From assembly GCA_023251475.1 (NCBI GenBank), contig JAHEYS010000067.1, positions 1-33,105 of the forward strand: 33,105 nucleotides of DNA. Reading direction: 5' to 3'. Made by a program: the position numbers and the translations under genes. The first letter of the stretch is position 1. Every line of letters starts with the position of its first letter. This stretch comes from Prolixibacteraceae bacterium (lineage in GTDB: Bacteria > Bacteroidota > Bacteroidia > Bacteroidales > Prolixibacteraceae). The notes under the pieces were generated by a model that did no database searches, was not told the DNA's origin, and saw nothing but the letters and a program-made list of their open reading frames with translations. This document shows, piece after piece, positions 29,882 to 33,105 of this stretch.

Positions 29882-30100
29882 AAAGAACAATTTTTGAAGT
29901 TTTTGGACACGCTTTTAGGGTCACCGTCCTGAAAAACTTCATCATTTTAGAAATATACTCACCAGAAATGAGATAAACTTAAGTTTACCCCACTAAACCA
30001 GAAAAGGAAGAGATTTAAGTTTAAGGTTCATTCTGCGGTTTTGGTTATCATCAATTTGGTTGCTAAAACCTAAATAAATTGTACTTAAATAATTTTATAA

Positions 30101-30778
30101 TTAGAGATGTGAAATTAAGATAAGCGGCAGATTAATAAAAAAATGGAGCAATACACTGTAAATAAAGCCATTCTTATAGGTTATCCTCACATAACCAAAC
30201 ATTAATCCCATTATAATCTGATTCGAAACCAAAAGGGGGAAAAGAAGATATTGAGCTAATTTCAGATTTTCAAAATTTGTTAGGTGAAATAAACCAAAAC
30301 ACAGCGCCAATCCATAATATAGAAAAGGGAAGTATCTCTGCCACACCCGTTCCATTTTTGAAAAAAAAGATTCCTTAATAAGATCCCAATGTGGAACCGA
30401 AGCAATCAAAAATGATATGCAAACCAGTATTATTAAATTAAATGAATGATAAAAAAGGAGAAATTGGAGAGTTGCCAACGATAAAAAAATATTCTCTTTT
30501 GAATATTTTAGTGGCAACCTGAATATAACCTCTTCATAAATCGGGACAAAAACGATCAGCTTAAAAGACAAGGGTATTGCTGAAAGTCTTATGCGTTGTT
30601 CTGGAAATAGATTTAGTAGACTCAAGATTGGCAGGAATAAAACAGATGTCACAATAATCGTCCCTAGATAAACTAAAATCATTTTGCCCAATAACGAAAT
30701 CAACTGGTTCATATTTAATGACAAAGGTATACCAACGTTTTTGGGATGAAAAAGAAAATATGAAAAATTATTTGTCAT
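30101..30778 (-). CDS. CPBP-family intramembrane metalloprotease
   Basis: Motifs YEEVIFRLPLK, FGLFHLTNF, LHFFINLP; multiple TMs. Confidence 0.82.
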   Translation of the reverse strand: MTNNFSYFLFHPKNVGIPLSLNMNQLISLLGKMILVYLGTIIVTSVLFLPILSLLNLFPEQRIRLSAIPLSFKLIVFVPIYEEVIFRLPLKYSKENIFLSLATLQFLLFYHSFNLIILVCISFLIASVPHWDLIKESFFSKMERVWQRYFPFLYYGLALCFGLFHLTNFENLKLAQYLLFPLLVSNQIIMGLMFGYVRITYKNGFIYSVLLHFFINLPLILISHL

Positions 30779-30811
30779 TATATGGACTTTATTAACTTGA
30801 AAACCAATTGA

Positions 30812-31012
30812 TTATTTTAGAAATAAATTCACCAGAACGGTAATTGAATTACGCAATGCATGAACAATAATAATGGCACATGCCGCATCTTCCCAGCACC
30901 TTCTCCGGAGAATCAGAACATAACCTGCTACCAGAACGCTCCCGCAAAGTGTTGCAAAAATGATATAAATAACTTCCAATAAATAGTGATCAAAAAAGCC
31001 AGATACAAACAA
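30812..31012 (-). CDS. Small two-TM membrane protein (66 aa)
   Basis: MFVSGFFDHYLLEVIYIIFATLCGSVLVAGYVLILRRRCWEDAACAIIIVHALRNSITVLVNLFLK; in line with its neighbours. Confidence 0.55.
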   Translation of the reverse strand: MFVSGFFDHYLLEVIYIIFATLCGSVLVAGYVLILRRRCWEDAACAIIIVHALRNSITVLVNLFLK

Positions 31013-31024
31013 GAGAAGTCGGTA

Positions 31025-31174
31025 CTAGAACAAGTTTATGATACTTCTGAAGAAATGGCCTATTCCAAATCCAATATTATACAGAATATTGTTTTGTCCT
31101 TCAAATTCAAGCACTACTTCCATCAGAATTGAAATTGAACAAGTAGCGAAAAACCAAACGGTAATCCAAGTCAT
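31025..31174 (-). CDS. Small membrane protein (49 aa), distantly similar to the 66-aa ORF downstream
   Basis: Hand translation: MTWITVWFFATCSISILMEVVLEFEGQNNILYNIGFGIGHFFRSIINLF*. Not in the ORF track. Confidence 0.5.
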   Translation of the reverse strand: MTWITVWFFATCSISILMEVVLEFEGQNNILYNIGFGIGHFFRSIINLF

Positions 31175-31215
31175 TTTTTTATGCCTAACTTTTTAATTAT
31201 CTTAATGTCTGCTCG

Positions 31216-31341
31216 TTATCCAAAAAACTGAAAAACTATCCGTTCAAAACTACTCCAGTTGTGAAAAATAAGGTATGATAAGGCAATTATAGTCAATAAT
31301 AATTCCATCTCGACTTTTGCAATAACAGATTTTTGTTTCAT
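31216..31341 (-). CDS. Small single-TM ORF (41 aa)
   Basis: Hand translation: MKQKSVIAKVEMELLLTIIALSYLIFHNWSSFERIVFQFFG*. Not in the ORF track. Confidence 0.4.
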   Translation of the reverse strand: MKQKSVIAKVEMELLLTIIALSYLIFHNWSSFERIVFQFFG

Positions 31342-31401
31342 TAATATGAAAATATGGTTTTCAATAATTTTCAAATGAATTTTGATTAATCATCAGAATA
31401 A

Positions 31402-31947
31402 TTAACTTACTTTTAAATAAGAGTGCTTAAATGAAATTGATAAAATCTGGTTTAAAAAAATACATGTATTGAATATTGAATGGATTAAGAAAATAATTAT
31501 AAAAGAACTTCTGTATTGATAACCCTTAATTAAATTAACATACAAAAAGTTAATAAAAACGCAAATGAAAAAAGTTAAGATTACTGTTGACAAATAAAAA
31601 AAATGAGTAAGCCCAAACAATAAAGCGCTCAAAAAAATAAACAATATCGAATTACATTTAAATTTAACGCACAAAATATAATGAATCAAATATTGAAAAA
31701 TTAATGTTTCAATTAAAGGACCTATAAAGCAAGCTTTAATAAAACGAGAAATAAAATAAAGGATCATCTCAAAATAAGTATTAGGCAAATTAAGAGGGTG
31801 ATTACTTTCATGAGGAATTTTAAATAGAAAAAATAAAAAAGATATGGAAACCTCAATTACGAGTAAAAAAAAGACACAAAACAATATCAACCAAATTGGT
31901 TTTACTCTAAATAAAAAGTATTTGATTACAATAATTTTATTAGTCAT
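31402..31947 (-). CDS. Divergent CPBP-family membrane protein
   Basis: PLIETLIFQYLIHYIL (variant of EExxFR), LFGLTHFFYL, LIHSIFNTC; multiple TMs. Confidence 0.72.
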   Translation of the reverse strand: MTNKIIVIKYFLFRVKPIWLILFCVFFLLVIEVSISFLFFLFKIPHESNHPLNLPNTYFEMILYFISRFIKACFIGPLIETLIFQYLIHYILCVKFKCNSILFIFLSALLFGLTHFFYLSTVILTFFICVFINFLYVNLIKGYQYRSSFIIIFLIHSIFNTCIFLNQILSISFKHSYLKVS

Positions 31948-32021: not shown

Positions 32022-32198
32022 TTAGACTGCATGATGGATAACAAATTGCCCACCAGTTTGAGCGGAAAAATCTATATACGCTCTTCCTGCAGCTGATAAA
32101 CAATCAATCGCAGCATCTATTATTTTCCCCCAAATATAATCTTCAATAAAACTGCCTCCATCCACCTCTTTTAATTCCAGTTCATTTAACTCTTTCAT
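32022..32198 (-). CDS. Double-glycine-leader bacteriocin/RiPP-like precursor (58 aa)
   Basis: Hand translation: MKELNELELKEVDGG|SFIEDYIWGKIIDAAIDCLSAAGRAYIDFSAQTGGQFVIHHAV*. L(-12), E(-8), L(-7), V(-4), GG leader pattern. Not in the ORF track. Confidence 0.8.
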   Translation of the reverse strand: MKELNELELKEVDGGSFIEDYIWGKIIDAAIDCLSAAGRAYIDFSAQTGGQFVIHHAV

Positions 32199-32328
32199 AG
32201 CTTCAATTTATTATATTCCTGAAAGTTTAACTCCTGCTTTGTTTAGCGTGCCGCAGGTTTTGGCGCGGTAACATTACAGGATCAAAGTAAAGGTTGTACA
32301 CTCTCATAAAAAAGCAGCGAATGAATTT
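32155..32328. repeat. Direct repeat copy A (promoter/5' UTR/leader block)
   Basis: Aligned by hand with 32932..33105: 174 bp, 3 mismatches, offset 777 bp. Confidence 0.95.
32283..32289 (-). promoter_or_regulatory. Putative -7 element (TACTTTG) of the 58-aa peptide gene
   Basis: Minus-strand CCTTTACTTTGATCC resembles the rpmB upstream TTTACTTTGCG; no clear -33 TTG. Confidence 0.35.
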
Positions 32329-32479
32329 TATTAACTCCCCCGATAATTTCTTTGGCCCCCTGATCGGAGATGATTTTCAGAGAATCTAAAGATTGAAGTG
32401 CACAATTTAAACCGTACTTTCATAATATGTAAATAGTTAATCCAGGAAATGGTAAAATAACTGATCATTTTTTTGCATT

Positions 32480-32680
32480 TTAATCGGACAAAAGCCATTT
32501 AACACCATAATACACTCCAACACCTAATGCTACACCAAGCAAAATGCAACCCAATACCATTCCACAACCGGTAAGCACAGCGCCAGCTCCGGCGACAGCT
32601 GCCATTCCTCCATTAGTTTCTTTTAACTCCTCCGAAGTTAAAGAATTAAACAGTTCCAATTCTGAATTTAATTTATGCAT
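32480..32680 (-). CDS. Double-glycine-leader bacteriocin-like precursor (66 aa), hydrophobic glycine-rich core
   Basis: MHKLNSELELFNSLTSEELKETNGG|MAAVAGAGAVLTGCGMVLGCILLGVALGVGVYYGVKWLLSD; L(-12), E(-8), L(-7), GG. Confidence 0.82.
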   Translation of the reverse strand: MHKLNSELELFNSLTSEELKETNGGMAAVAGAGAVLTGCGMVLGCILLGVALGVGVYYGVKWLLSD

Positions 32681-32686
32681 CTTATA

Positions 32687-32791
32687 TCAAATTTTATCAA
32701 AATGTATTGCTAAAAAGACTCCCAAAAGAAAGCTAAGTAAAAAAGCAAAAAACGAAATATAAATGATAATTTTCCAAATCTTTTGATTCAT
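32687..32791 (-). CDS. Tiny single-TM protein (34 aa), possible immunity or accessory peptide
   Basis: Hand translation: MNQKIWKIIIYISFFAFLLSFLLGVFLAIHFDKI*; ends 6 nt before the 66-aa precursor start. Not in the ORF track. Confidence 0.5.
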   Translation of the reverse strand: MNQKIWKIIIYISFFAFLLSFLLGVFLAIHFDKI

Positions 32792-32810
32792 ATACAACTG
32801 ATATTAGGTA

Positions 32811-32975
32811 CTAATTCAACGCACATGCAATTGTTATACCGGCAGCAAAACCTGCAAAAAAGGAAGCGCCACATGCTGCAGCGACAACTTCTGCTGAATA
32901 TAAGGTGCCTAAAATAAGCAGAGGTATGAATCCTCCATCCACCTCTTTTAATTCCAGTTCATTTAACGCTTTCAT
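32811..32975 (-). CDS. Double-glycine-leader bacteriocin/RiPP-like precursor (54 aa)
   Basis: Hand translation: MKALNELELKEVDGG|FIPLLILGTLYSAEVVAAACGASFFAGFAAGITIACALN*; leader nearly identical to the 58-aa precursor. Not in the ORF track. Confidence 0.8.
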   Translation of the reverse strand: MKALNELELKEVDGGFIPLLILGTLYSAEVVAAACGASFFAGFAAGITIACALN

Positions 32976-33105
32976 AACTTCAAATTATTATATTCCTGAA
33001 AGTTTAACTCCTGCTTTGTTTAGCGTGCCGCAGGTTTTGGCGCGGTAACATTACAGGATCAAAGTAAAGGTTGTACACTCTCATAAAAAAGCAGCGAATG
33101 AATTT
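32932..33105. repeat. Direct repeat copy B (promoter/5' UTR/leader block), truncated by window end
   Basis: 174 bp aligned with 32155..32328, 3 mismatches; identity continues to the last base of the window. Confidence 0.95.
33060..33066 (-). promoter_or_regulatory. Putative -7 element (TACTTTG) of the 54-aa peptide gene
   Basis: Copy B equivalent of 32283..32289. Confidence 0.35.

Follow-up and report, generated by a model that had tools for sequence, protein, structure and literature searches.

Gly-Gly (GG) leader peptides, loci of C39-peptidase ABC exporters (PCAT) and hypervariable core peptides are all already known, and several described systems resemble the locus analysed here. In the class II GG-leader bacteriocins (PF10439, Bacteriocin_IIc; TIGR03949, lactobin A/cerein 7B), as in our case, a 15-aa GG leader precedes a short hydrophobic core, a PCAT occurs with an HlyD-type partner (here in the syntenic locus), and CPBP proteins lie nearby. 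Our locus differs from them in belonging to the Bacteroidota and in having mutually unrelated cores, its peptides being predicted ones. The Bacteroidetocins (Coyne et al. 2019, PMC6671954), which are also from Bacteroidota, have leaders of 15–16 aa cleaved after GG and a PCAT exporter. However, their loci carry a thiol oxidoreductase, and their cores contain four (at least two) cysteines (PMC6671954), whereas each of our cores, A and B, has a single cysteine, and no thiol oxidoreductase gene of that kind was seen here.

The RiPP precursors with a conserved leader and a hypervariable core (PMC2890512; cyanobactins, prochlorosins) likewise place constant DNA around an unrelated core, and how bacteria vary a small core extremely while the surrounding DNA stays constant was described as an open question in a 2010 commentary (PMC2890512). 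Unlike those precursors, the window has no visible modifying enzyme: inspection of the ORFs revealed none, whether of the lanthipeptide, graspetide or radical SAM kind, near the window peptides or in the 10–20 kb loci of relatives. Its constant part also differs in including a putative promoter and 5′UTR, the 3′ end of a regulator gene and a gene remnant that gives the arrangement a direction. Finally, the DUF805b RNA (RF02914) occupies the same 5′UTR position in other genera, whereas the window's own element (type P1) has no covariance-model match; neither the window block nor the P1 blocks of four relatives matched any Rfam family, even at E values of 5–10.

The two blocks and the genes around them

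The window, by which we mean the whole stretch of DNA analysed, is the complete 33,105-bp contig G000:C466. Its two 174-bp blocks, copies A and B (Table 1), are 98% identical over their length (171/174, E 2e-82, by repeat search and own-genome BLASTN). The outer 121 bp on the minus strand, positions −130 to −10 from the ATG, are identical, and the three differences fall at −9, −2 and +8. Identity ends in the second Gly codon (GGA GGC AGT versus GGA GGA TTC), at the end of the 15-aa leaders MKELNELELKEVDGG and MKALNELELKEVDGG. Beyond this codon the cores have no detectable similarity as protein (score 24, shuffle p 0.20) or as DNA (46% identity, against 46% for shuffled sequence). The preliminary description was accurate on the two blocks with their three differences, on where the identity ends and on the dissimilar cores; its proposal of a recent duplication or gene conversion is supported by the 121 identical bp. 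As it also stated, copy B reaches the last base of the window, where C466 ends. Since the window is the whole contig, 174 bp is the visible length of the repeat only, and its outer edge is set by the assembly because C466 stops within copy B. Own-genome BLASTN found no third block copy in this assembly.

Table 1. Features of the peptide locus in the window.
Feature	Position	Strand	Remarks
Block copy A	32155..32328	-	3′ end of HTH remnant, putative promoter/5′UTR and GG leader; repeat search, BLASTN
Block copy B	32932..33105	-	3′ end of HTH gene, putative promoter/5′UTR and GG leader; repeat search, BLASTN
GG-leader peptide A, 58 aa	32022..32198	-	leader codons 32154-32198, core 32025-32153
GG-leader peptide B, 54 aa	32811..32975	-	leader codons 32931-32975, core 32814-32930
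Middle GG-leader peptide, 66 aa	32480..32680	-	between A and B; 25-aa leader MHKLNSELELFNSLTSEELKETNGG, unlike the A and B leaders
34-aa ORF	32687..32791	-	one predicted hydrophobic segment, MNQKIWKIIIYISFFAFLLSFLLGVFLAIHFDKI; read from sequence
HTH regulator gene 3′ end at copy B, last ~15 codons (44 bp), ...IHSLLFYESVQPLL	33062..33105	-	stop codon 33059-33061; truncated by contig end
HTH gene remnant before copy A, ~45 codons	32282..32419	-	starts after an upstream stop; without start codon or DNA-binding part; GG and tail kept
GTAATGTTAC palindrome-like element, copy B	33045..33054	.	conserved in 11-row alignment
GTAATGTTAC element, copy A	32268..32277	.
CCTGC...GCAGG hairpin, copy B	33010..33034	-	presumed 5′UTR; 5 pairs kept in 11/11 rows
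CCTGC...GCAGG hairpin, copy A	32233..32257	-	alignment
CPBP (Rce1-like) membrane protein	31402..31947	-	PF02517 23.9 bits, cut-off 22.4
Second CPBP (Rce1-like) membrane protein	30101..30778	-	PF02517 22.8 bits, cut-off 22.4

The leader consensus, MKxLNELELKEVDGG, is of the C39 type, with hydrophobic V−4, L−7 and L−12 and a terminal GG. Peptide B scores 25.3 bits with TIGR03949, above the cut-off of 21.5, and E 1e-5 with PF10439, slightly below the cut-off; peptide A has weak profile matches only. Both are predicted peptides of a known kind, GG-leader and class II bacteriocin-like, and would be exported as toxins or signals. Among the neighbours, the 34-aa ORF is a possible immunity or accessory peptide, and the CPBP protein at 31402–31947 we take to be a probable self-immunity protein. 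A 30-bp imperfect direct repeat (87%; 29938–29967 and 30808–30837) stands on both sides of the CPBP gene that comes first in the coordinates, and the interval that separates this gene from the other CPBP gene (30812–31374) holds ORFs that are short and fragmented, possibly decayed immunity genes.

Comparison with relatives shows that a winged-HTH gene (PF08279; 107 aa) ends in the outer part of the block; in those genomes this gene lies directly behind hlyD and a PCAT. Thus, where the block had been described as promoter plus leader, the leader and the promoter part stand, and the outer 47 bp of each copy (32282–32328 and 33059–33105) belong to a gene 3′ end. Before copy A, the HTH profile matches 32285–32416 with model residues 64–107 (E 1e-10). 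The end at copy B is identical in DNA to this remnant, and relatives have the full gene at its position. Copy A is the derived copy because the headless HTH remnant is attached to it; the duplication therefore has a direction.

The order hlyD–PCAT–HTH is common to six relatives (G011, G014, G010, G001, G013 and G017), in which the exporter linkage is genetic. In our genome, a separate 4.1-kb contig, C298, carries hlyD and PCAT and terminates in HTH codons 1–24 (MNMTGQLQRIQKMNRMIKSENTGS), and the middle part of the HTH gene is absent from the assembly; the link between C298 and C466 rests on synteny and the common HTH gene rather than on a closed contig. Most likely, the assembler broke the locus inside the HTH gene, and the order of the locus is hlyD, PCAT, HTH, block B, peptide B, small ORF, middle GG peptide, HTH remnant with block A, peptide A and CPBP proteins. 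The suggestion that more cassettes might follow to the right is accordingly unlikely to hold: by synteny, the remainder of the HTH gene is expected there, with PCAT and hlyD beyond it, and C298 ends in just the missing start of that gene. The genome also encodes another PCAT, distinct from this one and accompanied by an HlyD-like protein (L025, G000:C183:1-5018); a GG precursor, ...FKYLNSNEMNNLRGGGPSEPPLPPPSG..., may be encoded on the opposite strand.

A constant module with changing cores

BLASTN with the block gives nine matches in seven relatives (121–177 bp, 73–80% identity), each followed by a short GG-leader gene, and the cores behind them are mostly unrelated. The search for further copies proposed in the preliminary description is therefore negative within the genome and positive among its relatives. 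For the first peptides of seven exporter-linked loci, including that of the window, mean identity is 73% for the upstream DNA, 76% for the leader and 47% for the core, versus 45% for shuffled cores; no pair of cores is significant after correction for 21 tests, and the first core is different in every one of the seven genomes.

Within the module the order is the motif GCTTTTTTTATG, a TAnnTTTG-like box, GTAACGTTAC, a CCTGY...RCAGG hairpin and the leader. The box is presumably the −7 promoter type of Bacteroidota. Most relatives carry GTAACGTTAC in place of the window's GTAATGTTAC, and one pair of the hairpin occurs as C-G, U-A and U-G. Orphan modules without an HTH gene (G001:C21, G024:C247 and G024:C140) retain the DNA CTTCCCTACTTTTTTATGAGA(G/T)TG..., and GCTTTTTTTATG recurs, read in a different frame, where the HTH genes of other genera end (GCT TTT TTT ATG in L058, CTG CTT TTT TTT GAG in L026). 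Since GCTTTTTTTATG is kept in two HTH reading frames, and since promoter DNA is conserved in orphans that lack the gene, it is read as cis-acting DNA. On the strength of this conservation, the block would serve as promoter and 5′UTR. An RNA switch with mutually exclusive stems was considered and rejected; overlapping inverted repeats are suggestive, but covariation is limited (one or three two-sided pairs).

A second module type, P2, has the DUF805b RNA in the same 5′UTR position before GG-peptide genes (L033, L058, L059, L065 and L067). This RNA is found in 102 of the 140 family genomes upstream of many kinds of genes and is thus a general 5′UTR element. It reaches up to 12 copies per genome (L080–L109; L110–L118) and often stands in tandem before paralogous small secreted proteins (G064:C12, G143:C1, G086:C53), and also before GG peptides. 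It may be that P1 and P2 are themselves related modules that have diverged.

Four core families are common to several genera, at 44–56% identity (z 12–22, by pairwise shuffling on 28–45 aa, a modest statistic). Alpha cores occur twice with P1 in G001 and with P2 in G084 and G085; beta cores with P1 in G011 and P2 in G024:C140; gamma cores with P1 in G024:C247, P2 in G070 and a third, longer leader in G120; and delta cores with P1 in G010 and P2 in G062. For the beta and gamma cores, then, all four combinations with P1 and P2 exist, a pattern classically taken to indicate recombination between two sites. In G001, related cores stand behind clearly different leaders (MKELQKNELMEVNGG and MKELNEMELREVDGG), the reverse of the situation in the window. 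In G024, peptide modules sit as orphans elsewhere in the genome. Cores A and B had also been proposed as queries for alternative leaders; a leaderless core search of the 140 family genomes returned only themselves.

That the module for expression and export is held constant while the mature peptide is replaced, as originally suggested, agrees with the unrelated cores of the relatives and with the core families behind other promoters. Through these comparisons, modular exchange at the leader is well supported. We infer that the joining took place through recombination within the common leader sequence; the joint would then fall at the GG codons, as first observed.

The HTH protein and its C39-type leader

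The seven copies of the HTH protein in the genus share a C-terminal ...SLKIISxxGxKEIIGG, followed by 17–18 aa. Profile searches, run with different thresholds, found the HTH family in 56 of 140 family, 52 of 393 order and 34 of 396 phylum genomes. In 59 family and order loci that were not selected for GG (two lie at a contig edge), GG is present in all 32 intact HTH proteins with a PCAT directly upstream, versus 12 of the 26 others (Fisher p 1e-6); the sole PCAT-adjacent exception in these samples is a protein truncated by a contig end. These unselected counts are used because alignment A5 was chosen for GG, which makes its invariant GG circular. In the phylum sample, GG is present in 9 of 11 PCAT-adjacent proteins; of the other two, one is a reading frame of 84 residues that contains a TAG and one is a protein of 80 aa. 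Beyond these 11, four relatives (L163, L165, L172 and L173) have AG in place of GG (LNAG, INAG, LGAG), probably as variants of the cleavage motif; most of them have an HlyD-type gene in the region. In the PCAT-adjacent homologue of L161 (G738:C5), a TAG interrupts the frame before the leader part, which may mark a pseudogene or an unusual reading.

Counted from the GG in 39 HTH sequences, the residues are hydrophobic at −4 in 92%, at −12 in 95% and at −15 in 79%; LSNKEIQIVNGG, LSREDVRKVEGG and LSGEELQAVNGG are textbook-like examples. In the LahT complex, V−4, L−7 and L−12 of the leader are seated in pockets of the C39 protease (PMC6363468). An AlphaFold2 model of the HTH protein has a winged helix (pLDDT above 90 for most of residues 11–66), a helix at 81–90 that ends at the GG and a disordered tail, 90–107 (pLDDT below 50). 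A PDB sequence search with the HTH profile gave no match, and a fold search gave weak winged-helix matches only (BirA, NiaR-like; best E 0.02).

The association with PCAT and the C39-type leader extend to other Bacteroidota classes, and no dedicated Pfam or NCBIfam model exists for HTH proteins with such a leader. About 50 loci across the phylum, besides L026:8233-8556, L016, L065, L073 and L130, have a PCAT-adjacent HTH protein with a C39-type GG leader and a variable tail. Three loci of genus g8 (L053, L055 and L057) have a PCAT and a GG-tailed HTH protein without a GG peptide gene directly behind.

The HTH protein may be a substrate of the exporter. It would then be cleaved and exported, and it may act as a regulator; alternatively, the leader would serve for docking without cleavage, or for the release of a peptide signal. 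It is tempting to combine these elements, and we do so tentatively, since we regard the combination as somewhat less probable than its opposite: the HTH transcription factor would dock on the C39 exporter or be its substrate, its variable tail of 11–28 aa could be a peptide signal, export would feed back on transcription of the modules, and the modules would be cassettes recombining at one expression site, the whole class being widespread in Bacteroidota. We found no description of an HTH/double-glycine fusion in the openly licensed literature.

Origin of the two copies and its significance

We propose that the two blocks are copies of one expression-and-export module in a locus for GG peptides of the class II bacteriocin-like kind, the module comprising the end of the HTH gene, a promoter, a structured 5′UTR and the 15-aa leader, which would bring any sequence after Gly-Gly to the C39-peptidase exporter. 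Copy B would be the native gene for the first peptide after the exporter operon hlyD–PCAT–HTH, which would lie on C298 and across about 200 bp missing from the assembly. Copy A would be a recent duplicate of the module that carries a headless piece of the HTH gene and was joined at the GG codons to an unrelated core, and the HTH protein would presumably control the module. We give this reading a probability of about 0.75.

A tandem duplication of the whole gene, after which the core diversified fast under selection in an arms race, without any exchange of modules, is unlikely. Conserved leaders with hypervariable cores are general in such precursors (PMC2890512), and a weak FI...I.G...A match between cores A and B, at chance level, could be counted in its favour; however, identity is complete over 121 bp of flanking DNA and at random level over the entire core, and the existence of all four core–module combinations also argues against it. 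Other core families are still 44–56% identical across genera, and because cores stay conserved between genera, fast drift in place cannot account for dissimilar cores within one genus. Slightly less probable again is an assembly artefact, in which sequences of coexisting strains were joined at the common 174 bp. The evidence at the locus comes from the contigs of one MAG and from short cores with pairwise statistics; that MAG has 578 contigs and 3.5% contamination, its contig stops exactly in the repeat and the HTH middle is missing from it. A mis-join at the repeat could have exchanged which upstream end pairs with which core, but even then two cores would occur with one module type. Moreover, the copies differ at three sites, their flanks differ on both visible sides, the HTH remnant is joined to copy A, and the loci of relatives normally hold two to three GG peptides.

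We consider it very improbable that the block is a mobile cassette moved by site-specific recombination, integron-like or driven by a recombinase. The orphan modules far from the exporter in G001:C21, G024:C247 and G024:C140 and the palindromic GTAACGTTAC would fit such an element, yet the surroundings of the copies showed neither a recombinase nor an attC-like boundary nor a target duplication, the break on the downstream side lies within leader codons, and the outer limits differ between the orphan modules and copy A.

No description of a directional module copy at the cleavage codons was found for Bacteroidota in the openly licensed literature, and we do not claim priority. To the question of how a core changes within constant DNA, the locus adds a case with a direction, in which a freshly copied module, still bearing part of the gene next to it, meets a different core at the cleavage codons; within this genus, the first peptide differs at each of the exporter-linked loci examined. 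If it is true that the exporter processes the HTH proteins, this would be a new coupling of peptide export to gene control across the phylum, and it would provide a sequence handle for peptide loci that are so far unannotated.
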